Source: Owenia fusiformis (Eukaryota; Annelida; Polychaeta; Sabellida; Oweniidae). From it: a stretch of 64,000 nt of DNA. The stretch lies in contig CAIIXF020000009.1 of NCBI GenBank assembly GCA_903813345.2, forward strand, positions 5,946,030 through 6,010,029, given 5' to 3'. Position 1 is the first letter of the stretch, and each line of letters opens with the position of its first letter. A program made the translations under genes and the position numbers. This document shows, piece by piece, positions 5,654 to 47,800 of the stretch. The notes beneath the pieces are model-generated. The model was given only the letters and a program-made list of their open reading frames with translations. It searched no databases and had not been told where the DNA came from.

Positions 5654-5870
5654 ATGAATCCTAGATTTCTACTTAGCGCATTTGGACTAGTGTTTCTTTT
5701 AGCGACTTACGGGGTTCAAACATCAGAAGATGTGTTCGAAGACACACTCAGGGACCTGGAATCTAGAGTAGAAATAATTGAAAATCATTTGGAACTGGAC
5801 AACAAAGTAGACACGCAGAAATCAGATGAGAAAAAAGAAGTGAAATCAGGAGAGGGGGGAACTAGTGCGA
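5654..5870 (+). CDS. Astacin gene exon 1: signal peptide and propeptide start
   Basis: Begins MNPRFLLSAFGLVFLLATYG, a classic hydrophobic signal peptide. Ends in phase 1 at a GTGAGT donor (5871). Confidence 0.8.
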
Positions 5871-8800
5871 GTGAGTATATTAATTTAACTACTACTTCTG
5901 ATAAAATGTAAAAAAAAGTATTCAACTTTTATAACTGTTGATTCTGTTTTTCCAGTTTTATTGAGATATACAAGTAATTAAGTGATTTATTTTTTATGAA
6001 GATCTTCTATTTTTGCATCTATTGTGTCTATTGCAATAGGTATAGCTCTATATGACAGGTATGAAGGTGATTTTGGAACACAAGTGACAAATAAAATCAA
6101 CATTCGCAAGTTGAAACCACCAACTGATCCTTGCGAGAAAATATATTTAGCAGAAACTAACTTTCAATCAAAATTAAATTGTATTTTTATAATATCAAAA
6201 ATGACCAAGAAAGGATTGCCCAACCATTAAATTTAAGAGATGAAGCACTAAGCTCAGAGCGCAAGTGAGGCATATACATGTATATCATGATGGTCTGATA
6301 ATTTTACTATTGAAAAAATGGAATTATGTCTTGAATTCAAATATCGTATTCATAAAATGGTATGTATTTTGGAAGTCTTGGCATTTTTGCTAAACATCCC
6401 ATGATAAAAATGGATATGCAACTATTAGAGAAAACATTTTATATTTTAAGCCCAATATTAAAAATAGCTTTTCTTTGTCTCACCTACATGTACATTGTCA
6501 GATTAAGGTGTGTTTTCCATAAAATGGTATTACTAATGCTTTAGTAATTTACATGGTTACCATTTACACTCTGCTCAATTACATGAATAGCTTTGTTCAG
6601 ATATTTTTCACATAGGCGGGACAACAGATATATTACAAAATTGTTAAGATAATATATTTGAACATTTTCTATTGAATAATGCATACAATGTAAATCTGAT
6701 CGTGAAAACAATAATCAAACAAACAGATGTTTAAGTGCAAACAAAGTAAATATGTGTGTAAATTGTAAATAATGTTTTTATACTTCATGTCATAATGGCA
6801 GAAAATATTCACATATGTGGAAGAAATACACTGAACTTAGCTGAAATACTGGAAAATAGTGCAATCATATATATCGAGCCACGGTATTACTTATGACTGA
6901 GGAATACATTGGTTTAACAGTACTTAAGCAGTAACAGTACTTAGATTTTATAAAAATAGCTGGGCATTATCTTTCATATTTGTATATTCATGCAAAATTG
7001 TAAATGTTTCTCAAAACCTTCATTTCTTGTATACACATAGATTATCCTATATGAGGTCTAGGATATCGAGATTATCCCGAGGTCAATGTACTTTCTTCCC
7101 GCTAAGCCGGATATGAATTATCTCTTATACTAGATAAGAACTTTTATGTCCTACGTTTTGTTTAGCTGAATATATTAATTTTGATTGACACATCCAAGAA
7201 GGTGGCAAATCATTTCAATACACTTATTTATCAGATATTCTTATTTATCAGAGTCTCTTTTTATCTGAAGCTTGTAAGACTCTCCTCTAAGGGATTTAGA
7301 GACTGTGGATCCCACAGCGAGTTTGCAATAACAGCTTCCCACTCTGACCAGAGATCAAACAGAAAAGTATAATACATAAAACATTGAACCACAGTTTTAT
7401 TGTTATAACAAACCAAATCAACCACGATGAAGGCAATAATGATTTTCATAATATTTTTCCATCTTTAATTTGAGATTGAAAACATCGTTCTTACTTGGCA
7501 TGTTTAATACAACTATTTTTGCTACAAATTTTGTAAATTAAAGAAGTTGATTCAGCACTTCCAATCCCTTCAACCATTCACGTTTCATTTTATATGTATT
7601 GATCCTGTCCCTAGCTCCGATTTCGTTACTCGGATTGGCATCATTTTGTTCCAGACACTCTTTAGAATAAATTCATCTTCGGTGGAATAAAAATGTGTGG
7701 TAAACGAATTCGCTATGGGCAGTTAAAGAGGCGCCATCTATTCATTTTCAAACAGGGGGTAGGGGTTTAAAATAATTTTTTAACACATTTTAATAGTAAA
7801 ATGACGTTGAAATACTAATAGAATCTTATCAAAAACATTTATTTACAATTGGTTTGAATTTTCTTGTGTGTATTAGGGGGGTGAAAAAAGGACTTCACTA
7901 AGTGTTTTACCAAGAGCAACGCATATCATTTTCGATAAATAAGAGACTATGGTGGCATATATATCTTATAAAATTTTAACAGACACTCGGCAAAATATTT
8001 CAACTTGACAATAATACCTGTATGTTGTTGTAAACCAATATGCACATATGGGTTTTTTAAACGTTTGATTCGACATCATGTTCTGCATTCAAGGTATACC
8101 ACACACGCTTGTATTTCCTACTGTAATCGTTACTTTATCGTTACTTTATCTTGTATCTATTTCTGTGTTATTTCTGTCCTCTCCCAAAGTTTTGCATAAT
8201 GCCTTCTGGTCATTTCACAATTGTCAGGCATGTTTTTCTATGTATTGACTATGTATTGACTGAAGTGACAAACAAATATTTAAAAACTGTTTTCCATGTC
8301 AAGAGCGCTTTGTAATTGTAAAATAAATTCTCCAACAATCTACAAGTTTTGTAATTGTAAGGATAACATGTCCATGCCCAATAGGCTTTGGATTGTGATT
8401 TTTTATTTATTTATTGGATACTGGGGATTCGTTAGCCATTTGACTGGTTGTGCTCTTAAGTTGCTCTCTTTCATCCGTATTTTCTAATACTCGTTGATCT
8501 CTCTTTCATTCTTTGGGCACTTCCAGTTTGATATCTGAAGGTGGGCGGATAACTTCATTCGGAACCATTTTTGCACTGTGTCCCATTTAACCTCAATCTC
8601 AAGCCTCAAATCATACCCTTTTTAAATTCACGGTGTTATTGAGAAAAAATCTTCTACATTGTAGGTGAGGAGGAGGGCGAGGATGAAGGTGCGGCAGAGT
8701 ATGGAGGTAAATATATACAGGAGTTATCATCGGAAATTAAATATAGGGTATCACTAGGGAAATATTGATATCAATTGAGGGAACGCAGTGACTAAGGGAA

Positions 8801-11800
8801 GATATCAATACGTTCCCATTTCTCCTATATCTATCTCGAGCCTGACCGAGTGAATAACGAATGTATACCTTATCCGCATTTGAAAGTTGTATAAATACTC
8901 AGTTTAGTACATTTACTGCAACTATATGTATTTTCCAATATCATAACTCCGTGTTGATATCTTGATATCACCTATATATATTTTCTGTTACTTTAAAAAT
9001 AATGTATTGATGTTCATCCGAATCAGAAATTCTCTTAAAGGTATCTTGTCTTTGGTAATTAATTCGTTGTCTTAGTGGATCACAATTATATGCATAATTC
9101 TTACTAACATTTTAACAAATACACACGTACATCACATGGCATTTTAGATAAGGCAGATGGCGATATAGCCGAAGATGAGACTACTTTTAGAGCTGGCGTC
9201 GTAGCCATACAGTTTTGGCCAGAAGGGAAGGTTCAATATGACATCGATGAAACTACTTTAAGTAAGTTGAAGTTTGAATTAATGCTTTCATTAACAAATT
9301 GAAAAATATAATTCAACGAGAATTAACGTTTATCACATGATTGTGTTATTATTTGAGAAATACTACACATATAGTATATTATGTGAAGTGGGATATCTGC
9401 ATATATATTTGTTCTGTCTTTAGGACATATAAATATAAATATAATAGTATAAAATAAATATAAATATAATATTTTTGTGAAACCGATGCATTCTTTAGCA
9501 CAAAGTATAGAAGCGGGAAAGGAATGGCTTATTGACTGAACCATCCTTCAACCAGTACTGAACTGCTTTTTTCATTTTACATGTATACCTACATATGTGT
9601 GAGACGTTTAAAAGAACAGGTGTAAACTCAATTATATTTCGTAAGACGTCTTGAAAATGGTGGTGTAAACTCAACATACTTTTTCTCAAACGTTTTAGCC
9701 AAGACGTCTTGGAATGTCGCGTGTAGTATAAATAGGGCTATTGAGAATAAGTGGACGGGTATGCTGCAATCTTATTGAGGGATTCTTATATTTGGATATG
9801 ATATCCATCATAACATTAACCGTTTATTGTGTTAACAGCTCGCGGCTGCATGGTCAACATAACAAAGGCCTTGAAGGAAATTGAGATGAAAACTGCGGTA
9901 GGGGGTGCAAAGTGTATCCAGTTTATTAAGAAAACAAGTTTCATGACTTCGAACTTTGTCCATTTCACGAGGAAGGATGGGTACGTATACAAAAAAACAA
10001 GTTAGAAAATAGTTATGACTGTTTTTTTCCAATACCATACCTGTTATCTATCTCTTATACACAAATCTGCGATTCTTATTTACGTATATGAATTTCAAAT
10101 TTTATTTTTTATCATTCACATTCTTGAATCATTATGCAGGGCTAAATAATTCCAGATGCTGGTCTAAGGTTGGGTGTAAGTCGGGGAAGCAGGAGCTGTC
10201 AGTAGGGTTTGGTTGCTGCTCTGTAGGAACTATAATGCACGAGGCTCTACACGCCCTCGGATTTTTCCATGAGCAGGCTAGATCAGATCGTGACAAGAAC
10301 ATTGATATAGTATGGAGCAACATCAAACCAGGTAAAAGGATACTGTAGTTTGGCAAATGAGATTCAAAAGAATGCCGTTATTTGTCCGAGGGTTTTGATA
10401 TACCGTTTAAAAGGGAAAGGGTCAGGAATAAGGATAGATATCATACTAACATACTAGACAGGTTCCAATTCAAATAATTCAAGTTTTTGAGGCATTTTTT
10501 AGAAAAAGCAACAGACCTATTTTTACTAGATCAGTTTTTCATGCTGATAAAGATATTAAAAGATGACAGCTCAACGGGGTGGTCACGACACTAAATTTTG
10601 GCATTTTTACCCCCCTAGGAAAATATTCTAGGGGGTACTATGAAACTAGTTCATAACTCAAAGGATATATGAGCTATTGTTCTGAGTTGTACACCATACA
10701 TTGCTAGTACAAATATGAATACTATCCTAAAGTTATAGGTTGATACCCTTATTGGTCTCAGAAAAATACAAAAAACAGGAAAAAGATACGCAATTTTTGT
10801 CTTGCCAATTTTATATTTGTAGCTTCAAGCACAATATGACAGCTTTAACAGCTCATAGTAGTATTCTAGAAACATTTCCAAGCTATGTGTGGTATTGTAA
10901 TACAACTATTTTAGTTATGAAGTACTATTTTGTAATTTTATTATGACTTTATAGTGCCCTACCCCTGGAAAATTGAAGAAAGTGGATGTGGTGAATTTTA
11001 TCATTTTGCAGCATTAAGTTAGAAACATGTATTGATAGACACCAAATCAATAAATTCATACCATCATCAAATGTTAGGTGACATTCTAATTCATGTATTA
11101 CTAGAATATAGGACTTAAGATATTTCATATGTAAGTTTTCAATTTTGTACATGTATCATAATGAAATCTAGTGTAATCACATACTACAGAGGTTGGCATA
11201 CAGTCTGGACATTGACATAAAGTCTTAACATTATAATCATCAACTGATCTCATTTGAGCAACTAGACTATGGTGGTCATCATGCACAAGTAATGTAGAGT
11301 AGAACCTGCTAAGTGGAACACCTCTGTAAGTGGAACACCTCCCAAGTGGAACGCCTTTTCAAAGTCCCGTTTTAAAAACCCATTGACTTAATGTTAATTG
11401 AACATTTGCAAGTGGAACACCTCCAAACTTGAACAGTGAACACCCTATATTGAAAAATTAACCTGCTAAGTGGAACAGACAATTTCCATAGATTTCAATA
11501 TTGAAATATGTAAACAGAATTAATCTCCTTCAATGATATCTGGGTATGAAAACAGGGAATACTGTGATAATTGGCAAATTAGGACTTTAATGGATTTTAA
11601 TGGATTAACCTCTTGTAGAGGTCAACATGTGATGCAACCAATAATTAATTTGATAATCAGCAAATTAGGATTTCATAAGATTATCATTCAGAAAATTGGA
11701 TTAACCTCCTGTAGAACTGGACATGTGATGCTACCACTAATTAATATCCCTTGCTGTTTGTTTCAAACTTAATAAGTAAGATTAAAAATGTCATTTAAAA

Positions 11801-23062: not shown

Positions 23063-23755
23063 TCATTTCTTCTTTGGACCTAACTTCGCATGTCCAGAAT
23101 CAAATGAGTTAGCGATCAGAGCTGATGAGCAGGCAATGTCTAAAGCCAATGTGTAACCAGCTATCACTTCTGCCAATCTCTTAACCCCACCATCTCCATG
23201 GCAACCTATGATGCTCAAACAATCACTCTGTGAGGGAAGGCCTGTGCCGCCACCTATGGTGCCAATAAGTAACGAAGGTAAATGCAAGGATAAATCTACA
23301 GCATTTCTTTCTGGTGTTTTGGTGGCTTTAATTATGCATGTTGCAGATTCATGCAAACTGGCAACGTCCTGCCCAGTAGCGATGAACATCGATGCCAACA
23401 CGTTTGCTGCGTTGATACTGAAGCCCACAGCTCCAACCCTGGTACTCGCACAATGGAAATGAGTAAATGCACGAATTGTATCTTCGGCATTGGTTCCCAT
23501 AACTGCCCGAAGAACGTCATCTTCCAAAGTACATTTAGCAATGACATTAACGCCTCTCTTGCCAAGCATACTGTACATACTGGCCTTCTTATCTCCGTCA
23601 ACCCCATGTGTCAGTGAGAACTCTTTAACGTAAACCTCCGGTAATTCTAAAGGAAGCTTCTTCATAATCCAACCAACTATTTCTGCAGTTGCAAATGTTG
23701 TCATATTTTGGCCTGCTGCATCTCCTGTCTCGTATTCAAATACCATATGGAGAGT
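23063..23755 (-). CDS. HMG-CoA reductase exon 4 (cofactor domain and catalytic Lys, Asp, His)
   Basis: Entered in phase 0 after GTTTTAG. Encodes TLHMVFEYETGDAAGQNM through GVDGDKKAS, ATGQDVASLHES, GTIGGGTGLPSQSDCLSIIG and SGHAKLGPKKK, then TGA. Antisense open frames within this exon are shadows. Confidence 0.92.
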   Translation of the reverse strand, partial: TLHMVFEYETGDAAGQNMTTFATAEIVGWIMKKLPLELPEVYVKEFSLTHGVDGDKKASMYSMLGKRGVNVIAKCTLEDDVLRAVMGTNAEDTIRAFTHFHCASTRVGAVGFSINAANVLASMFIATGQDVASLHESATCIIKATKTPERNAVDLSLHLPSLLIGTIGGGTGLPSQSDCLSIIGCHGDGGVKRLAEVIAGYTLALDIACSSALIANSFDSGHAKLGPKKK

Positions 23756-26700
23756 CTAAAACATAAAAACATAAAATATAACTGCTACACCCCCATCAAA
23801 AATGTTGGCAAATATAACTGCTACACCCTCTTCGAAATGTTGGTAACTTCAATGCCATATGGAGCGTCTAGAACATAAAAACATAAAATATAACTGCCAC
23901 ACCCCCTTCAGAAATTCTCAAATACCATGTATGAAGCGTCTAAAACATAAAATATAACTGCTACACCACCATCAAAGGTTCGGCAAATATATCTGCTACA
24001 CCCTCTTCAAAAGTGTGACATTTCATAAAATAAATCAGCTCAAATAGCATATGAGACGTCTAAAAAATAAAAACACAAGATATACACAAGATGCATTCCC
24101 TTCAAAATTCTGGCAATTCAAATACCATATGAAGTGGTATATAAAATGTAACTGCTAAACCACCATCAAAAGTTCTGCAAATATATCTGCTACACCCTCT
24201 TCAAAAGTGTGACATTTCATAAAATAAATCAAAGCAGCTCAAATAGCATATAAAAACATAAGATATAATTGATGCATCCCTTCAAAATTCTTGCAGTTTA
24301 AATACCATATGAAGTGGTATATAAAATGTAACTGCTACACCACCATCAAAAGTTCGGCAAATATATCTGCTACACCCTCTTCAAAAGTGTGACATTTCAT
24401 AAAATGAATTAAAGGAGCTCAAATAGAATATGAGACGTCTAAAAATAAAAACATAAGATATAATTAATGCATCCTTTCAAAATTCTTGCAGTTCAAATAC
24501 CATATGAAGTGGTATATAAAATGTAACTGCTACACCACCATCAAAAGTTCGGCAAATATATCTGCTACACCCTCTTCAAAAGTGTGACATTTCATAAAAT
24601 AAATTAAAGGAGCTCAAATAGAATATGAGACGTCTAAAAATAAAAACATAAGATATAATTAATGCATCCTTTCAAAATTCTTGCAGTTTAAATACCATAT
24701 GAAGTGGTATATAAAATGTAACTGCTACACCACCATCAAAAGTTCGGCAAATATATCTGCTACACCCTCTTCAAAAGTGTGACATTTCATAAAATGAATT
24801 AAAGGAGCTCAAACAGAATATGAGACGTCTAAAAATAAAAACATAAGATATAATTGATGCATTCCCTTCAAAATTCTTGCAGCTCAGATACCATGCATAT
24901 GAAGTGTCTAAAAACAAAAAAACAGAAAAAATAATATAACTGCTGCTGCATCAAAAGGTTGACAAATATATCTGCTACACCCTCTCTTCAAAAGGTTGGC
25001 AAATATATCTGCTACACCCTCCCTTCAAAAGGTTGTGAAATATATCTGCTACACCCTCTCTTCAAAAGGTTGTGAAATATATCTGCTACACCCTCTCTTC
25101 AAAAGGTTGTGAAATATATCTGCTACACCCTCTCTTCAAAAGGTTGTGAAATATATCTGCTACACCCACTTCAAGGGTTTGCTAATGTAACTGCTTCATC
25201 CCCTACATCATTGAGCTCGTGGTGATTTTAGGGGGAATTAAGATTCATTATTTTGCACGTTAGGTTTCCTTTTTCAGTACATTTTTATTTAAATAAAAAA
25301 TGTATATCTCAAACATAGTTAACTAGGGGTCACTTATATACCCGGGGTTGCAACCTTAAAACTAAAATGAAAATTCTCTACAACTTAGGACTCTTATAAT
25401 TCCACGCAGTCGCATGAAATAATTCCACGCAGTCGCATGAAATAATCTATCAATGTTTCTCAATTGAAATTCAATTAACAACGTATGTGCCCTTTCTTAA
25501 ATATAGTGAAAAATTGATCTTTAAAAAACGTTTCATACAACACCACCAGTCTATAAAACGATTTGCTTATTGTTAAAAAAACGAAGTTAATTGTTTAGAA
25601 TTTTATGAGTGCTTCTGTCAAAACCAGGTAATCATGGTAAGATTAAATAAATTAAACTCACATCATGTGTTATGACATCTGTAAACCCTGTAAGGATTGT
25701 GTGACGCGACCTCTTTTTGATTATATCCTGAAAAATACTCTGTTTGGTTTTAATCCACTCTGCAAGTAGCACAGCTTGTCTCGGATCTTCCATTGTGAAT
25801 GACGGCGATCGCATCATCGTTTTACCAATGACATACGTTTTCACACCTCCTGCTTTGTTCAATAGTTTAACACCCTTTTCCACTGCTGCCACTAAGGTTC
25901 CTTCTGTCGTAGCCAAAGGTCCGAGTATGTTTCCTGAAGTCATATTACATTTGTACAGGCCCGTAGCCGGGGGGGGGTTCGATGGGCATATAACTGTCAA
26001 CAGTGTGCTCTGATTAACTGGAATTTAATATGTTAAATACTAGATACATGTAGTCTGTATGGTAACTAACCTTGGGCGTTTTCCCCATTGAACATGAGAG
26101 GACCTGCAATTCCAATGGGGATTTTCGCCAACCCAATAGGATTTTCAATGTGACCTTTCAATGATTCTGTTGTGGCATCACTACTTTTGCCCCACCAGTC
26201 CCGGATGTGGTACAGAGGGCGCTGTATGTAAGCTTCTACCCATTTTCTCCTTTCGTTACAGCCGTCTGTCGAGTAGTCATTTCTTGGTGGACGTATTGCA
26301 CACATGGTTTTCGAAAGAGGGGCGGTCGACATGCTTTTTGTATTCTTTGGATCTTGATTTGAGGCTACTACCTTGTTCTCCTTATCAGTACCTGCATGTT
26401 AAATACATACAACACGTTAAGGCAATGCAGTGGCGACACCCTTCCCACACAGCCATAAAATGGGCCCAGAACAAAAAAAATTGACCCCAAAAAATGTTTT
26501 TAGGGACCCAATTGCTGGGCCTTTAGAGCATTACTGGGCCTTTTGAAATGGGTTTCAATTTTGGATTTTAGGGGCCCAGATTTACCCCCCCCCTCCTTGT
26601 TACTTCTCAGATCAGTACAGTGGTACAGTCGTCGGACGGGCATCTCGAAATCATCTGTTGTACGCGTTTCCAGGCGAATCATTTCGGGTTTTATGAATAT

Positions 26701-28118
26701 TTTACATTTTCTAATGAGAGAAGCCGACGTAAACATTGTGATTAAAGATTATAGTTTACATCGATTGAAATATCACATCGACGTACGGTATTTAGGAACT
26801 AGATCATCTAGATCATCTTTAGGAACTAGGTCATCTCTAAGAGCTTGTGGTTTCCCTCCGCAGGTTTAAAATCAAGTATTTCGAATAAAATATATTTGTG
26901 AAATTGCAGAACCATGTGTTACTTATAGTCTATTGCATATGAATTTGCGATCTTGTCTCTATTCAGAAAACACCAAAGGTGCACCTGCATTGGTCGACTC
27001 AAAGTTAATCTGACATATGTGTGTACTTTTAGTTTTTATATAACGCATAATTTATGCAGCATGACCCACAGCGTGATTTAAGTGGTAAAACAATATGATT
27101 CAACCGACGACATTATTTAAGTGGTAAACAATATAATTCGACCTGCGGCGTTATTTAAGTGGTAAAACAATATAATTCAAACCACAGCATTATTTAAGCG
27201 GTAAAACAATCACTGTTCCAAAGGTGGTGACTCTAACTGCAGTAAGCTTCATTCAAGATGGTTGCCGAAATTCTTTCGTTTTCGATAAACCTCTGATTTC
27301 AGCTAAACTAAGTTGAATCTGGATTCCAAATGTTTCGCCATGCAAATTAATCAAGCTACGATGGTAAATAACCACAAATAAATGCTCAAACAACCGCGAT
27401 ATTGGATAATTTTAAAGAAAATGACTTCACTTAGAATGACTCTAACTAAAGTTGATGATGACGTAATGATGACGAAGATCATCAACTTCAGTTAGAGTCA
27501 TTCTAAGTGAAGTCGTTTTCTTTAAAATTCTCTAATTATTGCGGGTGTTCGGGCGTTCCTTTGTGGTTGAATACAATCGTAGTTTTATTAATTTGCATGT
27601 CGAAAATTTTGAAATCAAGATTCAACTTAATTTAGCTGAAATCGGAGGTTTAATTTAATTTAACCCACAGCGGGTTACATTTATAATTCAACTCGCAGCG
27701 TTATTCAAGTGGTCACCGTAAAACAATATAATTTCATCCCATCCCTCTTAGTTACTGTCATTTCTATCGCGCCATTGTGCAAATATTTGTCGTTCAACAT
27801 TTAAAATGCAAATCAAATTATGATGAATAAAATAACCCTTGTGGAAAATACGCATTTTATTAGGACCATATCAAGAATGCATTACATATTCTTACATAAC
27901 ATATTTAGAACCAGCTCTTAAAAATTGAAAAGTTGATTTAATTCTGAAAAATACAGTATGTAAATTCTACAAGTTACCATATCCCTACCATTGTCTGTGG
28001 ATGCATAAGTGTTATGCTTTGAAAGGGCACTCTGAAGAACACGCCATCCAAGACTCCTTGTCCTCTTTTGTAATACCCCACCAGAACCTAGCATTCTGAG
28101 GAATCTCATTTTATGCAA
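23063..28118 (-). CDS. Class I-like HMG-CoA reductase, short soluble form with presequence-like N-terminus (4 exons, 471 aa)
   Basis: CDS on the minus strand = 28118..27989, 26391..26071, 25933..25662, 23755..23063, 1416 nt. The product should reduce HMG-CoA to mevalonate with NAD(P)H. ENPIGLAKIPIGIAGPL and PLATTEGTLVAA (Glu161) match the substrate-binding region; TGDAAGQNM (251-259) and GTIGGGTGLPSQ (about 409-420) match the cofactor and dimer region. The catalytic set appears complete: Glu161, Lys in DKK (296-298), Asp371 in ATGQD and His463 in SGHAKLG. There is no transmembrane or sterol-sensing domain, unlike the ER enzyme of animals (about 890 aa). Residues 1-41 hold eight Lys/Arg and no acidic residue, as in mitochondrial presequences. 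DAAGQNM replaces the usual DAMGMNM and TEGTLVAA the usual TEGCLVAS, so this is a divergent branch. Exon phases (1, 1, 0) all agree. Catalytic exons are firm; exon 1 is inferred from phase and position. Confidence 0.85.
23756..25200. repeat. Intronic tandem array containing decoy copies of the exon 4 splice acceptor
   Basis: HMG-CoA reductase intron 3. Units of about 180-195 bp start at about 24120, 24300, 24495 and 24690 (AAATACCATATGAAGTGGTAT...CTGCTACACC...TTCAAAAGTGTGACATTTC). A 37-bp array follows at about 24965-25170 (TCTTCAAAAGGTTGTGAAAT + ATATCTGCTACACCCTC). The units include derivatives of the genuine intron/exon boundary at 23740-23770, so sequences resembling ...TTTTAG|A-CTCCATATGGTATTTGA recur through the intron, clearest near 23850-23880 and 23920-23950. 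Confidence 0.85.
25201..25661. other. HMG-CoA reductase intron 3, exon-3-proximal part
   Basis: AT-rich, with a short direct duplication ATAATTCCACGCAGTCGCAT at about 25397-25440. Nothing else recognised. Confidence 0.5.
25662..25933 (-). CDS. HMG-CoA reductase exon 3 (catalytic Glu)
   Basis: Entered in phase 1 after ACTTCAG. Encodes GNILGPLATTEGTLVAAVEK...KTMMRSPSF...DVITHD and ends in phase 0 at GTGAGT. Immediately upstream, in the intron, is a CAGGCCCGTAGCC MITE remnant (about 25955-25985) that remains open in the same frame and would extend the ORF artificially. Confidence 0.9.
26071..26391 (-). CDS. HMG-CoA reductase exon 2
   Basis: Entered in phase 1 after CATGCAG. Encodes a Lys/Asn/Ser-rich linker, then ...HIENPIGLAKIPIGIAGPL and MFNGENAQ. 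Donor GTTAGT, phase 1. Confidence 0.85.
26392..27063. other. HMG-CoA reductase intron 1, exon-2-proximal part
   Basis: Contains a low-complexity stretch with repeated GGGCC(C/T) motifs at 26470-26580. Overlapping open frames on both strands have no recognisable domain. Confidence 0.4.
27064..27725. repeat. 39-bp tandem repeat split by a palindrome (HMG-CoA reductase intron 1)
   Basis: About four units of 38-39 bp (ATTTAAGTGGTAAAACAATA, at 27076, 27114, 27153 and 27192) are followed by a palindrome. Its arms are about 27215-27450 and 27479-27645, around a spacer containing GATGATGACGTAATGATGACG. Further degenerate units of the same repeat follow at about 27664-27725, so the palindrome seems to have inserted into the array. 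Confidence 0.7.
27989..28118 (-). CDS. HMG-CoA reductase exon 1 (presequence-like)
   Basis: Begins MHKMRFLRMLGSGGVLQKRT; a second ATG at codon 4 could also serve. Ends ...STDN in phase 1 at a GTAGGG donor, which fits the phase-1 acceptor of exon 2. It is positively charged and amphipathic. No homology was recognised, so assignment rests on position, phase and an open start. Confidence 0.6.
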
Positions 28119-32812: not shown

Positions 32813-35800
32813 CTAAAAGTAAAGTAACATAAGTAAAATTAGGTAAAAAGCTCAGATGTCCGTGTATAAATGATAGATGGCATGTCAAACAACTACCTAA
32901 CGTTTTTGTGTTTAGAAGTTGTTGCAACTATTTTTCTTCCAATCATTTACTCAAAGCACCTTGTCTGGGTAACTTAACCAGAAGACCAGAGGATTGAGTA
33001 CCTCATAGCCGGCTTTAAGAAGAACAAATCGACCATACTAAGTACACATGTATAATCGTGTGTTCAGCTTTGAAGACTGAACAATTTTGACTTTATCCCA
33101 AGGTATCAATTTAGTTGTAGCGTACCTTTTGTTGTTTTCCAACCCTTACTTCGACTTCAGTTTCTTTCCATGAGGTGCCGAGATTTCCCGATTTTTTCCA
33201 ATGCTGCCCAACTTCATCGCCCCTTGAATTGACTGTTATCACTCTAAGATCCCCGATCATACTCCCATACATATTACAGGCAAACCTCACACAATATGTT
33301 CCCTCGGATTGTTTTCTAGTCTCTAATCGAGCTTTTTTATTTGTGTGTCCACTAGCTTCGATAAACGCAAATTTGCATTCTTTGGAAGAAAGCCCTGTAG
33401 GACAAATGAACATCTTTTTAAACAGTCGTTGGATTAGACGAGCGATAATATCTGTCATTTCCAAAATGTGATTCAGAACTAAAACCAAGACATGAGGCAA
33501 GTGTAAAAATATGTGAGATTAATTATTAGAGAGATTTCGAAACTCACTTTTGGTCAGCATAGCCGTAGGGACCGGGGGTTCGATGGGTTCGGACGGTCCC
33601 CCGGTCAGGGTTTCCCTCAAAAGATATTTGTGGCAAACCAGAAACATTAAATTCAATTTATATGACCAGTAAATAAAAATATAATAAAGTTGTACACTTC
33701 TCTCCAAAAGTTTGGAAGACCCCGGATCATCATGACATTATGCAAAGAAATAATAATTTCGCACAATGTGTTTTTCGAACTTAAATGCTGCTTCATATCC
33801 GGTGAAATCAATCAACTGTCATAATCCTAACAAATTGATTTAGTTTTGCAATATCTCGATTTATTCTTTAAATCTTTTTCAAGCAACTGAAAATTGTTCC
33901 TATAGTTATAAATAAATTTGTTCAATCAATTTAACACAAAATTTGTTATTTTTTTATTTTAACATAAAAACAACTACTTATTGTCTCTATACTGATGAAA
34001 ACACATTTTCTTTCAAATCTATGCGCCTTTGTTTTGTTTCATTTCAAACAAAAATTTCTCACCCGGAGCTGATTAGTCCCCAAGAGCAAATATCAAATAA
34101 TAGAAACATTTTGAAATGAGTTATTAAAAAGCACATATGTATTTATCATTTATAAACACAAGCATTTGAATGGGTACTAGTATATAGCATTTATTATCCA
34201 TCACTTCGATTTCTTTTATATAAATAATTTGATGGAATTAAAATGCGAAATTATATTAAAAGATATTATACGATTACAGTTTAGACAAACGCAAGCTTCA
34301 GTGTCTACAATCAGCCTCTACGGAACATTCCGATGTGACTGCTACACTCAGGCCGTAGCCAAGATTTCTCAAAGGAATTCTACTTTTGCTAAATTTCAAT
34401 GGACATTTGTAACGCGCGGCTTTTTGTACCCCAGTAACTTAATGATATTAAGTTACTCCAGGGGTAATTTCTTTTTCCAAATAACACGCACATTTTTGTT
34501 TGAAGTCTTTCTTTATATTATTCAGGCCCTTAGCCAGGATGTGTACGTGTGGAGGGAGATTGGCGGCTCGTGCGATCTTGAACGATATATTCCTTCTATT
34601 TGACCTTCAAGAGGTGATTTTTTCAACTTGCTTCAAATTGACCAATTTTTTTATCAGATTTTCAAATCTGACTTTAGATTTGAGATTCGACTTTCATTGA
34701 CCTTCTCAAGGTCAAAAAGGTATTTTTCAACTTGTTTCAAATTGACCAATTCTTTTTTTCAAAATTATCTAGAAGTTCTCAAAAGTTCAAATCTGACTAC
34801 AGATTTGACCTTCAATGACATTCTCAAGGTCCAAAAAATATTTGATCTTCTCAAGGTCAAAAAGGTCTTTTTCCAACTTGCTTCAAATTGATCAATTCCT
34901 TTTTTCAAAATCATCTACAAGTTCTCAGTAGTTCAAATCTGACTTTAGATTTGAGATCTGAGATCAAAAAAGGTATTTTTTCAACTTGCTTCATATTGAC
35001 CAATTTTTTTTAAAATCATCTACAAGTTCTACCCCCTACCCCCCCCCCCCTCTCTACTAAAAGCTGGCTACGGGCATGTTGCTCATATTGCATGTGAAGT
35101 ATTAAAGATTGCAATTGATGCAATCATTTTCATTGGAATCGATATAAAAGTATTCTGGCACTTACAATGACCAAGACGTGCAAGCAACATTATCATTTCG
35201 GGTAAAGGCCAAATAAACATTTATCAAAGGGCAATCAAAATATGTCATGAAAAAACACACAGCGTGGGCAATGAGGGGATGAGAAACATCATTCAAAGTT
35301 GTATGGTTATGTGTCGGCCATGGAAATAAAAAAGAAAGCATAGCATGTTGAATAGAAATGTAAAGGTTACATGCATCGCTATTCCCACAAAGTTATAACA
35401 TGATCACATGTGAAACTGTAAGTGAAATATATTGTTTCTTGGTTTGGCAATGACTCATTCTTTGCTGTAATTTAAATATAAACATAAAAATATGCATACA
35501 ACTAACTTTTGATTGTAAGTTTATATTTCACATAATTTTAAAGTCATTTTGTATCCTCCAACACATGCTTAATAAAGTTTTACAAAGACAATTCAAATAA
35601 TTCAAAAATTAAATAATGATGATCTAAACACGTTTATTCAGTACTTTCATTTCTCAAAATAATAATCTAAAAATATTTTTTCCCAAAGATGATATTTTAA
35701 TGTTTGGAGGATACAAAATATTGGACAGCCTCAACTAGACAACTTGAATTCACGACAGAAATACCTAAACTCAATCATATATCTCCATTGTCTGCAATCG

Positions 35801-38800: not shown

Positions 38801-41800
38801 GTCATATGCAATCGAACGCCTTACAATTCTTCCTCGACGTACAGGGTGTTCCATATGTTTCAGGAATGATGCTGTATTCTATTGGTTTTCTTTTCAATCT
38901 AGCTGATCTTTTGACAAAATGTGTCCAAATATGTTGTGAATAAGTTGGAAAAGTTTCATATCATAAAACTCAGTAGACTGAATAATATGGTTGCTATAGT
39001 GACCTAGGGGTAGGGTAGGTGGAGCAGGTGTAACAACACGCAAAACATGACATTTTTGTAAAAATAGTAGTTTTTGTATAAAGTGTTCAAAGGAAAGACG
39101 ACAACACAGGTGTTAGGGCCAGCAACCCGAAGCACCTTAACTTTAAAGCTACAAGTAGGAATAAAAGAGAATGCCCCCAAGCAGACCGAAAGGCGGGGGA
39201 GGATGATCTGCACACGACGGATGAGAATGATAATGACCAAAGCAACGACATATGGATTACGAATAGGACTCAAAATGATGACATCGACGCAATAGAGATG
39301 AGAAGACGTTGTGGGAGTTGCGGAGGCACTTTTAAGAATGAAAAAGGAGTAAAGATCCACCAAGGAAAGACTCAGTGCAAGGAGAAGCTAAAACAGCGTA
39401 AGGCAGTGGGAACAGATCAGGCGATAGCCAGAGATGTGAATACTGCTCATAATTCGAAGAAGGTCTGCAGCCAGGAGGCACACCACAGAGCTACTAACCT
39501 TCTAGTTGAAGCCAATCCTACCACAGAGGGAGCGTTAGATCAAAGTAAGGACCTCATTCAGGAAAGAAAGCCAAGACTCAACCTACCAGCAGCAACAGAC
39601 AAGCGATGAACAGAACTTGACAGCGAACTTGAGACTATCCTAAATAACTCCCTGAGAGGAAACTCAAAGAGGAAACTCGAAGCCATGACCAGTATCATAT
39701 ATGAGGTATGCGAGGAAAAGTTCGGGTCAAAGGGTGCAGGAGTGAAACAACAACAACCTGCTGGGCCAAGTAGACGTCAGAAAGAGATAGCTTCTCTTAG
39801 ACAGGAAAATCGGAACCTTCAGCGACAATTGAAGGCTACGTCACTAGCCAGCGAGAGAGATGGCATCAGTCATCTCCAGCATATTCTCCACCAAAGGCTG
39901 GTGCAATTGAGGAAAGCCGAGAATATCAGGAAGAGAAGACGAGACAAACAAAAGACAAGAAAGGCCTTCTTTGACAATCCCTAGAAGTTTACTTCAGATT
40001 TGTTGGGGAAGCCGAAGAGCGGTCGCCTTGAGTGTCCTCAAGAGGAAGTCGAAACATCAATCCACACAGCTCATAGCGATCCTGATCGAGAGTTACCCTT
40101 GGGAGATCCCCCCATTGATGTTTCAGTCGAGAACCCAACCATCCCCTTTGACTTATCAGACATCAAGCTGGAGGAGATCACTGCAATTGTCAAGAAAGCC
40201 AGAGCAGGGTCAGCTCCAGGTCCATCAGGACTGACATACAGGGTATATAAGAACTGCCCAAAATTGCTCAGACGTCTGTGGCAATTGATGAGAGGTATAT
40301 GGAAGAACAAGGACCTACCAAGGAATTGGGCATTGGCTGAGGGCTGCTTTATCCCAAAGGAACTCAATTCCAAGGGAATGGACCAATTCAGGGAGATCTC
40401 TTTACTTGATGTGGAAGGAAAGATTTTCTGGAGCGTTGTGGCTAAGCGCTTGACATCTTTCCTTTTGGCCAACCAGTATATCGACCCAAGTGTTCAGAAA
40501 GATGGGATCCCTGGACATTCAGGCTGCTTGGAGCACACAGCTGCAATAAGCCAACTGGTAAAGGAAGCCAAGAAAGGGAACAAGTCCCTCTCAGTAGTAT
40601 GGTTGGACCTTGCTAAGGCTTACCCCAGTGTACCGCACCAACTGATACTGGAAGCATTAGTCCATTACCATGTTCCAACAAAGATAGTAAACCTGACTAT
40701 GGGACATCTAAACTCCCTGAGAATGCGCTTCACAGTCAGCAATTACACCACCAATTGGCAGAGATTAGGAAAAGGTATCATGGCCGGCTGTACTGTTTCA
40801 GTAGTTTTGTTTGTCACAGCAATGAACCTCCTACTAAAGGCAGGTGAAATACAGTGCAAGGGCCCTACAGCAGATGACGGCACAAAACATCCGCCATGTC
40901 GCGCCTTCGTGGATGATATTACAGTGATGACCAGCTCTGTAATAGGCACCAGATGGGTTCTTTCTGGTTTGGAAAGAATGGCAAATTGGGCACGGATGCA
41001 CTTTAAGCCTGCCAAGTCAAGGAGCCTGGTTCTTGTAAAAGGCAGACTTTCTTCAACCTCATTCAAGATCCAGGGTGAGAAGATCCCAACATTACAAGAC
41101 CAGAGGATTAAGTGCCTGGGGAAATACTACGACAGTACCCTAAGGGATGTTAACAACGGAGCTGAAGTTTCAAGCGTACTTGACAAATGGCTGAAGGCCA
41201 TAGACTCAAGCCATCTCTTAGGACGTTTCAAAACCTGGTGTTTTCAGTATGGCATCATCCCAAGGCTGCAGTGGCCTTTCCTGATGTATGACATTCCTCT
41301 TTCTACTGCTCAAGCTATGGAGAGAGTTTGTAGCAAACTTCTGAGGAAATGGTTAGGTCTACCTCCATCCTTTAGCACAGTCAATCTTTACATTACAACA
41401 TCTAAACTCTCCCTACCAGTGACATCCGTGGTTGAGGAGTATAAGACCACCAAAGTAAGAACTGTAATTACTTTGGAACAGTCCAAAGACCCAAAGGCCA
41501 ACAAGACAGGTGACAGCCTTTCTTGTGGAAGGAAATGGAAGGCGCAGGAGGCTGTAGCCACAGCTAACGAACGCTTAAGGCACCAGCATATTGTTGGGAC
41601 TGTGTGCAAAGGAAGGTTGGGACTAGGCCACTACGGTCCTCAACAACTTACGGAAAAGACAAAAAGGGCGAAGATCACCAGAGAAATTCGGAACCAGGAA
41701 GAAGAAGACCGACTGGTGAAGGCAGTGGGCTTAGCCAAGCAAGGAGACTGGACCAACTAGGAACCAGCTCTAAAACGATCCTTAAAGTGGAAGGATCTTT

Positions 41801-44800
41801 GGCCCACGGACCAAGAAAGACTCAGTTTCTTGCTGAGAGCTTTTTCGGACCTCCTACCAACTCCATCCAACCTCAAAGTATGGGGCAAGGAGGAAACAGC
41901 TAATTGTACTCTGTGTGACAATAATAACTGTACACTAAACCACATACTAAGTGGGTGCCCAAAAGCTCTTGCAGAAGGACGTTACAGGTGGCGCCATGAC
42001 AAGGTTCTCCAAGAAATAGCAAAATGGACGGACCAGCAGAGACTTGCCATGAACACAAACAAGCCCAGCGAAAGACCAAGACTGGCAAAGTTTGTCAAGG
42101 AAGGAAAAAGTGTTCAACACAAACCGGCACAGCCCTCCTTCCAATCGAACATTCTTTCAAAAGCCAACGATTGGACTCTGAAAGTGGATCTGTTCCAGAG
42201 ACTTATCTTCCCGCAAGAGATAGTTGTCACCAATCTCCGCCCTGATATGTTACTGACCTCAGCCACCAGCAAGACACTTATCATCATAGAGCTAACTGTC
42301 CCATGGGAAGACCGCCTTGACATCTCCCATCAGTTGAAAGAGGCAAAGTATCAAGATCTAGTGGACGAAGCCAAGGCCAGAGGTTGGCACACTGTCCAGT
42401 ACCCCATAGAAGTAGGCTGTAGAGGTTTTCCAGCTTCCTCTCTTCGCTATTTCCTTTCTCAAATAGGATTGCCACCAACGCAGCTTAAGTCAGCAATCAA
42501 AGCAGTTGGTATGGTAGCAGAGTCCAGCTCAAGGTGGATTTGGCTGAAGAGGAAAGACAGGTGGTGTCCTTCAACGAGTGATGGTTAAGATTAGCCATCA
42601 CTGCCCCACTCAGTGGAAGCATACAGGCTAAGGGGCGAAATGCTGTTGAAACTGAAATACCTGCTGATGACGCAGTGAAGGACTCCCACTTGTTTCTCTT
42701 AGACATTAACCACCGTTTTGCGTATCCCTGTTCAAATTGTAGCGATGCATCATAGATGTTTATAAGAAAGAAAAAAATGTCATAGTCGCATCATACTTGT
42801 TGGAAATTAAAAAGAATAAAGGTGGATTCCTGGAAATTAAAAATGTAATCACACCCTTTATTAGCCATAATCATTATTTCAGCATCCATCCCCTCCACAT
42901 TAGTTAGCGCTCTCACTTTTCTCGGATGTCCACATTTTGGATTATCGGTCTCAGTTCCCCTTTCAGATTTGAACCGCTTGTGCCATTCGTATACTCTAGA
43001 GGTTACCATCATTGAGTCCCCATGTGCATTCGTTAGGAGTTTAATTTTGTCTGCTGCAGAAAACTGTTATTCACACATGTCTTGTCACAGATTGTAGTGT
43101 GTTTCCTAAGTCGAAGGTTTCCTTTGCTAATGACTTTTTCACTTTTCAAGATGGCCGCTCGTCCAAAATGACCTGTGTTTATTCTCCTTTGTGACTCATG
43201 ACATGACAGGTGTTTATATTGTGATGTTATCAAAAGTGATGACATTCTTTTACTTTCTTGGAATCCACCTTCATTTTTGTTTAATTACTGACAAGTTTGA
43301 TCCAACTCTGACAACCCAATACTTAATCACGCTTCGTACAAAAAAAACTATTTTTACAAATATTTCATATATTTTGTGTGTTGTTACACCTGCTCCACCT
43401 ACCCTACCCCTGGGTTACTAGAGCAACCATATTATTAAGACTACTGAACTTCACGATATGAAACTTTACCAACTTATTCAAAACATGTTTGGAAACATTG
43501 TGTCAAAAATTCAGTTAGATTGAAAAGAAAACCAATAAAACACAGCATCATTCCTGAAACATATGGAACACCCTGTAACTGCTGGCTATCATCAAGTTTT
43601 ATTAGACTCCAGATGTAAATCTGGAGTCTATTGTTTTCGTCAGTATTCTTCTTTATTATTTTTCTTTATTTTTATTATTCTTTTCCAGTTTTCCCGTTAA
43701 CTAGAATATATTGATCATAAAGGTCATAAAGATATGACATTAGATTTTTGATTACGCTTACCGATTTTGAAATATGTAGGTCAAAATGTAGGTCAAAATA
43801 ACGAGTTCTCCAAATTTAACATCTGAGTTATGAATTAAGAATTTACTCAGGAATCCGAATCTGCAAACCAAATTTCGATCCGACTTCCGGTTCGAAAGTT
43901 ATGGTGTTTTGAAATTTCGAGAAAAATCGTTCTAATGATATCCTTATAGAAAGTCAAGAGTAGCGAAGAAAATATAGAAAAAATCATCCATCCTTCCTTC
44001 CTATCCTGTCTGATCATATCCTTCCTATCTATCCTTCCTTCCTATCCTTTCCTTCCTATCCTATCCTTCCTTCCTATTCTATATCCTATCCTATCCTAGA
44101 ACTGGGTCAAATCTTACATGACACCAAAATGCCTAGGTCAAAATCTAGGTCAAATTCAAAGGTTTTCTTTATTTTTGCGTTTCTGACACTACACTTCAAT
44201 TATATTCTTCGAAATTGTGTATACATGTAGCCAAGAGTGTGCTAATAGTGTTAGCCTTTTGCCGTCAGAAAGTATTTTGACCCACTTTTGAGATATGGTG
44301 TCCGAAAAGTAGGTCAAAATAAAAAAAATCTCCAACAAATGAGTTATGAATTAGGTGTAGAATTTTGTCAGGAATCCGAATCTGCAAACCAAATTTGGAT
44401 CTGACTGCCGGTTTGGAAGTTATGGCGTTTTGAAATCGATCTGATGGTATCCTGATAGAAAGTCAAGAGTAGAGAAGAAAATATTGAAAAATTCATCCAT
44501 CCTTCCTATCTGATCCTATCCTATCCTTCATATGTATCCTTCCTTCGTATCCTTTCCTTCCTATCCTATCCTATCATATCCTTTCTTCTTATTCTATCCT
44601 ATCCTTCTTTCTTATTCTATCCTATCGTTCCTTCTTATTCTATCCTATCCTACCTTCCTATTTTATTCATCCATCTTTTTTTGGATGACTCAGCTTATTC
44701 TGGATGACTCGGCTTATTCTGGATGACTCGGCTAAAAAAAGGTCTTAATCTGGAGTCTGAAATTGAACTTGTTCAATTTCCAAAGTCTAGTTATGGTTGG

Positions 44801-47800
44801 TTCTTCTTTGACCTTACCGCTGGATATTATCAAGTTTTAGGAAGATAATGACAACGATTTTTTTCAAATATTCATGAATTCGACCAAGTCTTATTGGTTG
44901 ATTTATAAGCAACTGAGCTATATCTAACTACGAGAAATAGAATTTTAGCGTAGTCCCAATTAGTCAAGGAAGAGCAATAGACACTCCTTTATTGATCATG
45001 TTCACCGCGGAATAAGAGTCCATATCTCAAAACGTATTGAGACACATTTTGTGAAAAACTAGCATAATTTAAGCATTTGTCATTCTAATATAAAAGTGAT
45101 TCATTTGTTGCATTTATCTTATTAATACCTGAGAAACAATACAAAAGGTCGATACACTGATTACATAATTTTTTGGTATTGATAAGAAAAATAACCTCAA
45201 ACTTCTAGCTTGGAAAACTAAATCATATATGTTAAATCATTTTGTATTATTTTCTGTTGCGTTGTGTACTCCAAATTGTGAAAAAATGTGATTTTATTAT
45301 TTGGTAACTTTTTGACCTCTGTTAATGGCAGGCATAATTCAGCCTAAAAGCCGGAAGTATATGAAACGGTAATAATAAAAATTATGTCAAATTAGGTCAA
45401 ATATCGCTGCGCTATAGTGTGCTACCAGCTCCTTTATTAGACGTCCTAGAGATTTCATACCATGGACTATATTCGTGAAGAAAAGACTAAAACATAGAGG
45501 TCAATACTCGATTTTATCGTATGATCCGTAAAATGAAGCCCTCTGATTGGTCAGTTCTTGTGCTGTACCAATCTGTATTGCTACTGAGATTGTCCCCGTT
45601 GATCATCTCCGTCGCAATACAGAAAATATTGGTACGGACACTGTGGCTAGTGTCCCAATAGATCAATGGAGACAAAGAAAATCTTGCCAGTTGTCCAACT
45701 GTAAATAAATCATTATGATAAAAGCATAATTTATTATAGCATCCATTTGTTACCGTTCTGAATCCAAATGATACATAGTGGCATCCATTTTATACATATA
45801 TGTTGACGTTTACGAAATGTTGTTCAAATATCTTCCCTATAACAGGAATATGGTAGCTGAAACTTTCACACATTGTCATACTATGTATATTGAATGTGTA
45901 TGCAAGATTTCAAGTCACAATGTTAAGTAGAAACTCTGAGATCACTGTCCTCGATTTGCTGTCATATTTTTGCAATGACCCCATTCCCTATATTACACGC
46001 GAGCACCCACGATACATTGCATATAAATGACTGCATCCGCATAGATCGACTAGCCACAGTGACGGAGGGGACAATCTCAGTAGCAATACAGAGGATCACA
46101 CGATAAAAACGTTATTGAATGATTTGAAGTGTAATCCAGGATATATTCTGTCTCGATATTCTGTATTGACACTCGACTTCATCTCGTTCCAATACAGAAT
46201 TTCTCGAGCAGAATATATTCTGTATTGCACTTCGAATCATTCAATAACTTATAGTGCGGTAGTACAAGCGTTGTTATAGGAATTACAAAAGGTAGAAAGA
46301 AATCTATTACACTGACAACTTTTTGACAACTTGTGTCTGATGTGTTAATTACAGTTGGTGGGACACATTTCGGTATTTAAAACATGAACCAATGGGGCAA
46401 AGTTTTAACTACCCCTAAAGAAACGAGGCCTTAGTTTTGACCTACTGGGATTCATCTGTTAAAAATAATATTTTGGACTCTAGGTTTATAAATGTTGAAA
46501 AGAATTCTTACTATAACAGTTGTATAAAACCCGTATTTCCTCAATATCGTTCGGACTTAAGTGAGTTCTTTGTCCAAAGTACAATTTCGGATTAGTCTTT
46601 GCTTGTAGTGTCTTCAATCCTCGAACTTTTGCAAAAGCATATGGTCCATAGTGCATTATACTGCCGAAATCATACGGTTTACCAAGTGTTGAGGCGTATG
46701 CCAGATTGTACTTATCAAAGTTATTGGTATATCCTAGAAAATAACAAATATATCATTTAAAGACATGATTCAAAGTTTAGCGTTGTATGTGATGTGTTTT
46801 CAAATATTGTGTCCAGGTCCAGGATATACTTAGCAGTCATTGGTAAAATAGACTAGATGCGAGTAGAAATAATCTTGATTTACGTCATTAGATATTCAGA
46901 ATTCAGTCAAAATGATGTCATATTTGAAATCTACATGTAAAAGTACTTCTAGAAATATGATTTCGAAAATTGTTTATCAACTTTGAAAATTTCGTATTTT
47001 TGAAATTTGACTTCTAGTTCGGGGAAATTCCCCATAGACCCCATGTTACAAAATCACAAAAAGTGAAATATTTATTCTTGTATTGGATAGATAACATTTT
47101 CTTTAACTAACTAAACATATTCTAATTTGCATAACTATGAGATACATAAGATGCACACAGTAGTCCTTTAATAATGTGTGAAAATATTTTATGAATTCTA
47201 TTTTACCTGAGGCGATATTTGTCCATTTGATATCAAGGTATTTATCTCGATCAATTCTGCTTTGTTCATGATAAAAACCCAAGGCATGTAACATTTCATG
47301 CATAATTGTACCAACTCTCGTACATCCTATACCTATTGAAACGTCTTGTGCACCTCCTCGTTTTGCAACTCTTGACCAACACCTTTAAATGAAATAAGAT
47401 AATGTTTTAGATCATCGACCTTCTCCGTAAGGTTTCCAACTTCATCTTTGTGACTCGCTTTTAATGGTTCGGGTATATGACTTGATGAATGTTACGCTCG
47501 CCAGAAACGCAAAGGTTTGAACAAGTGATCCAAAGTGGACTTCATCCCTTTTGGAGATAAGTGTAGATAAAGTATATGTGTAGTTTGTGGAACTGTAAGA
47601 TTCAATCCCTAAAGAATGGAAATACTTTCAATATTTATCAATCATTTATATGTAAAGAATTTCATTTTTCCATATTTTCATGATAAGTAAAACAATTAAG
47701 GCATTACAAACCCATCTTTTCTAGTAAAAAGTAGATAATCTTTCTCTGTTTTTCGAGGTCTGAACTCTATACACTTCGTGTTTTTAATTTTTGTTGCGTC

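Follow-up and report, generated by a model that had tools for sequence, protein, structure and literature searches.

Background

The genome of the annelid Owenia fusiformis contains a gene that raises the question of what a short HMG-CoA reductase (HMGR) homologue without a membrane domain might be in an animal. A sequence-only reading of 64,000 nucleotides of contig CAIIXF020000009.1 (the window, the whole stretch analysed here) took the gene for an HMG-CoA reductase and offered two origins: a second, soluble and possibly organellar paralogue of the animal enzyme (HMGCR), or a gene acquired by transfer that later gained introns and a targeting exon. By description only, two proteins can be set beside it. 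The mitochondrial HMGR of trypanosomatids is likewise short and lacks the membrane domain. Li et al. are said to have described, in 2004, a soluble HMGR in the lobster mandibular organ, reportedly a form of the ordinary animal HMGCR, which would likewise be a soluble animal protein of the same superfamily.

The class-I HMGR homologues include a well-supported clade, FcrA (Grossi et al. 2025, PMC11948995). According to the available part of that paper, the FcrA of Ca. Promineifilum breve produces fatty alcohol from fatty acyl-CoA in E. coli and uses NADPH, does not reduce HMG-CoA, and is unaffected by 10 uM simvastatin. The same text names as changed in FcrA the residues Ser684 (Glu in N. pharaonis), Lys795 and Leu862, the last replaced by a bulky residue; by the paper's own numbering offset we read the printed Lys795 as Lys735. 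An N-terminal Lad domain is present in certain FcrA only and is not defining, and 12 of 59 putative FcrA, mainly eukaryotic ones, may accept smaller molecules, so that, as far as this text goes, eukaryotic members are known to exist (PMC11948995). No animal FcrA appeared in titles or abstract openings of the open-access literature among the matches listed, and the available parts of PMC13370337 and PMC6832408 hold nothing further on animal FcrA. Is the Owenia gene a second HMGCR? Or does it belong with FcrA, and was it acquired from bacteria?

Results

Gene structure

The gene is predicted to comprise four exons on the minus strand (28109-23063), with GT-AG borders and joined phases 1, 1 and 0.

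27989-28109, minus strand: putative exon 1 (prediction only), residues 1-40 and the first base of codon 41
26392-27988, minus strand: intron 1, which holds only if exon 1 is correct
26071-26391, minus strand: exon 2, through residue 147, with alternative starts Met60 and Met69; bacterial homology mostly from about residue 74
25934-26070, minus strand: intron 2
25662-25933, minus strand: exon 3, TTEG motif including catalytic Glu158
23756-25661, minus strand: intron 3, largely tandem repeats
23063-23755, minus strand: exon 4, GDAAGQNM motif, Lys294, Asp368, His460 and stop codon

This exon structure upholds the four phase-compatible exons of the sequence-only reading, with GT-AG borders at 28109-27989, 26391-26071, 25933-25662 and 23755-23063. 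The start that it placed at 28118 and its length of 471 residues have to be corrected. Position 28118 is a TTG three codons 5' of an ATG and is followed three codons further up by an in-frame stop, which lies 18 bases upstream of the exon 1 ATG; from this ATG at 28109 the protein has 468 residues. The spliced frame of 468 codons is fully open, for which the chance by base composition is about 1e-13, and judged from its sequence the gene is real. The tandem repeats of intron 3, at 23774-25167, have units of 195/390 and 36-37 bp.

The Pfam model HMG-CoA_red matches residues 86-464 with 305 bits. The model for HMG-CoA reductase (NADPH), TIGR00533, scores 234.1 bits, below its curated cut-off of 441.8. 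All four catalytic positions are present as had been described, Glu158, Lys294, Asp368 and His460 corresponding to human Glu559, Lys691, Asp767 and His866. The reported lack of a hydrophobic segment is also borne out: there is no clear membrane helix, and the highest 19-residue Kyte-Doolittle mean, 1.74, lies within the catalytic domain.

Genomic context

Beyond the reductase gene, 18 frames of the window and one more (26504-26866, opposite intron 1) were scanned with Pfam. The features around the gene are as follows.

10019-10345, plus strand: astacin metalloprotease exon (Pfam)
33114-33518, minus strand: MAM-domain exon upstream of the reductase gene (Pfam)
39082-42585, plus strand: non-LTR-type retrotransposon, a run of neighbouring open frames that include RVT_1 and zf-RVT, with reverse transcriptase at 40.0-41.8 kb
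47106-47384, minus strand: astacin metalloprotease exon (Pfam)

The astacin and MAM exons perhaps belong to meprin-like genes. With astacin, MAM and reverse transcriptase frames in the window, the host looks animal. Rfam and tRNA scans of the 64 kb gave no matches.

Bacterial and structural relatives

Relatives were sought in one genome per species across 84,980 prokaryote species with six peptide patterns, a scan by which relatives could be missed. The best 80 of the 519 relatives are all bacterial by title, share 36-40% identity with the Owenia protein and mostly begin to match near residue 74; overall identity to bacterial proteins is 36-41%, mostly from residue 74 on. In the Owenia protein 73 residues precede the homologous part; for many bacterial stop-to-stop frames the figure is about 130 or higher. 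Five phylum samples contained genomes matching at E ≤0.001, some of them weakly (10 of 296, 17 of 299, 39 of 247, 26 of 149 and 25 of 235), as did one family sample (11 of 151). No close donor was found in these six samples, into which some genomes were drawn twice: identity over more than 350 residues was at most 42%. The best long matches reached 41-42%, and one shorter match 45% over 126 residues. Sequence scores against PDB entries were 206 bits for 6hr7, which we take to be archaeal, 142 for 8ecg and 141 for 7uli, both presumably plant enzymes, and 130 for human chains. A viral origin was also considered and rejected, the exact peptide patterns having no match in viral_contigs.

Phylogenetic position

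Trees were built from 60, 41, 45 and 38 rows selected from a pool of 158, later 163, loci. As an anchor for FcrA we used locus L077, which is contig PMJK01000076.1, named in the available text of PMC11948995 as bearing FcrA beside a wax ester synthase. With three class-II rows as root, the 38-row tree unites the Owenia protein, L077 and another 26 bacterial rows in a single clade (support 100/98), from which the human, plant and archaeal rows and four bacteria with the motif GDAMGMNM are excluded. The unrooted 41-row tree splits the Owenia side at 99/99 from human, plant and archaeon together with five GDAMGMNM-type and three GDASGHNM-type bacterial rows. The placement in this branch agrees with the tests of constrained trees. 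The best tree grouping Owenia with human and plant is 47 log units worse and is rejected (p-AU 0.001), and a grouping of Owenia with seven GDAMGMNM-type rows is rejected at p 0.0275 only.

The sequence-only reading had proposed a phylogeny as a check; in the trees built here the protein groups with bacteria, outside human and plant HMGCR (p-AU 0.001). To the extent that eukaryotic HMGCR is represented by a single human and a single plant sequence, this rejects an origin of the gene as a soluble paralogue of the animal enzyme. The other suggested origin, transfer followed by a gain of introns and perhaps of a targeting exon, is the better-fitting of the two, given the grouping with bacteria.

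Within the branch, a 12-row subclade with support of 100/99 (45-row tree) and 100/100 (38-row rooted tree) unites the Owenia protein with nine loci that have stop-to-stop frames of 818-1061 residues and two stand-alone loci from Nocardia. The anchor L077 sits in the main FcrA group, apart from this subclade, which is itself a deep branch. Nesting of the Owenia protein inside the subclade is weak (93/84 and 90/88, both in the rooted tree), and a clade of the 11 bacterial rows without Owenia is not rejected (p-AU test, p 0.37). The Owenia branch is the longest in every tree (1.7-3.0), and therefore support was sought in single positions.

Residue-level comparison

The alignment, in human HMGCR numbering, has 124 rows: Owenia, seven HMGR-type rows, the 11 rows of the nearest clade and 105 other bacterial rows, not all of which are proven FcrA. 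In the 112 rows outside Owenia and its nearest clade, 71 columns are at least 95% conserved, and Owenia deviates at 15 of them; by leave-one-out on the same columns the human row also deviates at 15, and two rows do so at 18 and 20. Four of these highly conserved residues are changed in both Owenia and the subclade. Lys704 is lost in all 11 subclade rows and is Val in Owenia, and Gly849 is Leu in all 11 and in Owenia; His752 becomes Asn in 9/11 and in Owenia, and Asn697 becomes Ser in 7/11 and in Owenia.

The substrate pocket is changed as well. Lys735, present in all seven HMGR-type rows, is His in Owenia (His337). At 862 the seven HMGR-type rows have Leu, 104 of the 105 other rows Trp or Phe, and all 11 subclade rows Phe, as does Owenia (Phe456). 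Position 684 is Glu in 76/105 other rows, with Ser kept in 12/105, and Glu or Asp in every subclade row; the Owenia residue, Thr287, is of neither the FcrA nor the HMGR type. Across the three positions that separate FcrA from HMGR (684, 735 and 862), the protein is FcrA-like at two and of neither type at the third.

Arg590, Asp690, Lys692 and Asn755 are kept. Private to Owenia are Ser565 to Ala and Arg568 to Lys, at two positions that do not vary in the remaining 123 rows; further changes comprise its own deviations Glu709 to Lys and Ser852 to Ala and a Gly for Asn686. Because of Ser565Ala, Arg568Lys and the Gly at Asn686, the activity of the enzyme could be altered or lost through its own changes. 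The motif variants once read as marks of a divergent branch are not private to the protein: GDA[A/S/T]GQNM is found in nearly all bacterial relatives examined, and Gln at human position 657 occurs in 100/105 other rows and in 11/11 of the nearest clade.

Gene neighbourhoods and kinase fusions

Among the 80 top loci, 8 have WS/DGAT-like sequence in the flanks that were retrieved, confirmed by Pfam for L033. At the anchor L077 the match is at 5897-7135, with one ABC1-kinase frame in between. A gene matching PF00368 with the motif DAMGAN, which we take to be the class-II HMGR motif, accompanies the FcrA-type gene in 3/5 genomes searched, so the FcrA-type gene is not the sole HMGR-family gene there. 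In two of these three, the DAMGAN gene adjoins a frame that by eye resembles GHMP kinase (L134) or HMG-CoA synthase (L136). According to the available part of PMC10152446, neither an HMG-CoA reductase nor a phosphomevalonate kinase is evident in Nannocystis pusilla.

The nearest relatives of the Owenia protein are an FcrA-like domain fused to a C-terminal kinase-like domain (nine loci) and the stand-alone Nocardia form (two loci). The fusions, of about 820-1060 residues, include L003 (2680-5391), L160 (6907-9654), L137, L138, L139, L141, L142, L144 and L152. Pfam APH scores above cut-off in seven of the nine, and sub-threshold kinase matches are seen in L139 and L152/L159. In L142 the fusion also begins with a sub-threshold match to PilZ. 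Nowhere does the available main text of PMC11948995 use the word kinase.

In L160 a DUF3419 gene (5783-6910) overlaps the start of the fusion, which follows directly after it; we presume that DUF3419 is related to betaine-lipid synthesis. The neighbour of the fusion in L159 is an AMP-binding enzyme, and these two neighbours would suit acyl or lipid metabolism. Around one fusion (L163), the WS/DGAT-like match is weak (54 residues, E 1e-5) and distant. The fusions might produce and phosphorylate an alcohol. The Owenia protein has no kinase domain, and in the 64-kb window tblastn with bacterial full-length proteins, fusions included, gave only matches of E ≥0.4 outside the reductase exons.

Exon 1 and targeting

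The N-terminus had been described as acid-free with eight Lys/Arg. It is acid-free up to Asp39, but the first 38 residues contain seven Lys/Arg. The two strands together contain 286 ATG frames with 38 codons or more, among which only four ATGs (three frames) are acid-free with at least seven Lys/Arg in 38 residues, by a threshold chosen after exon 1 was known and hence fitted to it. Among the four, a phase-1 donor fitting the patterns used comes after exon 1 alone. On the minus strand at 26.4-32.7 kb no other frame has both an ATG and a donor of this kind together with 20 open codons. The hydrophobic moment of exon 1 is not above that of shuffled sequences, 1159 of 2000 being as high, and with a start at Met60 or Met69 the protein would have 400-409 residues and no presequence. 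The C-terminus is GPKKK, presumably not an SKL-type peroxisomal signal.

It is plausible, from its composition, that exon 1 carries a basic presequence, and mitochondrial targeting is a plausible guess; more tentatively, exon 1 would supply the mitochondrial presequence. One may speculate that an animal took up a bacterial FcrA-type enzyme, that its gene gained introns and a presequence for mitochondria, and that the enzyme now serves there as a statin-insensitive acyl-CoA reductase yielding fatty or smaller alcohols, a scenario that we consider unlikely in its entirety. To our knowledge such an alcohol route inside mitochondria has not been described in animals, and the usual animal fatty acyl-CoA reductases belong to a different family.

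Discussion

The gene is probably derived from a microbe. We consider it likely that it is a soluble animal member of the FcrA or putative-FcrA branch, which is mainly bacterial, and that the animal lineage or an ancestor obtained it from bacteria before it gained its introns. By its sequence the gene looks like a working one. It shares with FcrA the branch, the catalytic tetrad, a GDAAGQNM-type motif, the loss of Lys735 and an aromatic residue at 862. It differs in having an animal host and introns, apparently no N-terminal Lad domain, Thr rather than Glu at 684, and Phe rather than the usual Trp at 862. The kinase-fusion and Nocardia forms are its nearest subclade, with common changes at 697, 704, 752, 849 and 862, although the fusions carry the kinase domain that it lacks. 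Human HMGCR (PDB 1dq8) has the same fold family and catalytic residues, but differs in substrate-pocket residues (the HMG-binding Lys735 and Ser684 are absent in Owenia), in its membrane domain and in tree position.

The label of HMG-CoA reductase is probably wrong, the branch being that of FcrA, in which, in the available text of PMC11948995, one assayed member reduces fatty acyl-CoA and not HMG-CoA. That assayed FcrA is a bacterial relative, and the subclade of the Owenia protein contains no assayed member as far as seen. Because the tetrad is conserved and a bacterial relative has been assayed, the enzyme would be expected to work by the HMGR mechanism, with two hydride transfers from NADPH, and CoA would leave as the thiol. 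The substrate would be an acyl-CoA other than HMG-CoA and the product an alcohol, perhaps a fatty one for wax esters or ether lipids. The enzyme probably does not make mevalonate.

Could the gene instead go back to an ancient FcrA-like paralogue of eukaryotes that some lineages kept by vertical descent and many others lost, with no transfer into animals? The long branch and the absent close donor would suit such an age, as would the placing of small-pocket putative FcrA mainly in eukaryotes by the available text of PMC11948995. However, in trees of bacterial rows with human, plant and archaeon, the nearest relatives found are bacterial and Owenia is nested among them, though weakly (a sister position has p 0.37). 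Transfer is the likelier origin, and descent from an old paralogue is somewhat unlikely, though deserving of serious attention. More doubtful is the reading that the gene came from bacteria but encodes a genuine HMG-CoA reductase, possibly in mitochondria, that yields mevalonate. HMG-CoA is made in animal mitochondria, the tetrad and Arg590, Asp690, Lys692 and Asn755 are kept, and Thr at 684 could stand in partly for Ser. Against this, Lys735, His752 and Leu862 are altered, TIGR00533 reaches 234 bits of the required 441.8, and HMG-CoA is not reduced by the assayed FcrA, according to the available part of PMC11948995.

Contamination or a decaying copy, with no working gene, would accord with the long branch and the several altered conserved residues, yet it is highly improbable, since the gene has three introns and a fully open frame, with astacin and MAM exons of animal type on its flanks. 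Least credible, to the point of being nearly dismissed, is a piece of the standard membrane-bound HMGCR whose upstream membrane exons were missed. Exon 1 is a prediction only and the search upstream covered ten minus-strand frames at 28-33 kb, but none of these frames, most of which rank with the more hydrophobic ones, has a match to a sterol-sensing or HMGCR membrane family; the catalytic domain falls outside the human and plant grouping, and the same strand carries a MAM-domain exon upstream, at 33.1-33.5 kb.

Pfam or similar models will label genes like that of Owenia as HMG-CoA reductase and so misplace them in the sterol pathway. The kind is already known, in that eukaryotic putative FcrA are mentioned in the available text of PMC11948995. 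If the FcrA reading is true, an animal enzyme of the HMGR fold probably converts acyl-CoA to alcohols and should be resistant to statins. The Owenia gene offers a concrete test of the function of the unexplored eukaryotic FcrA members and of the location of the animal form.
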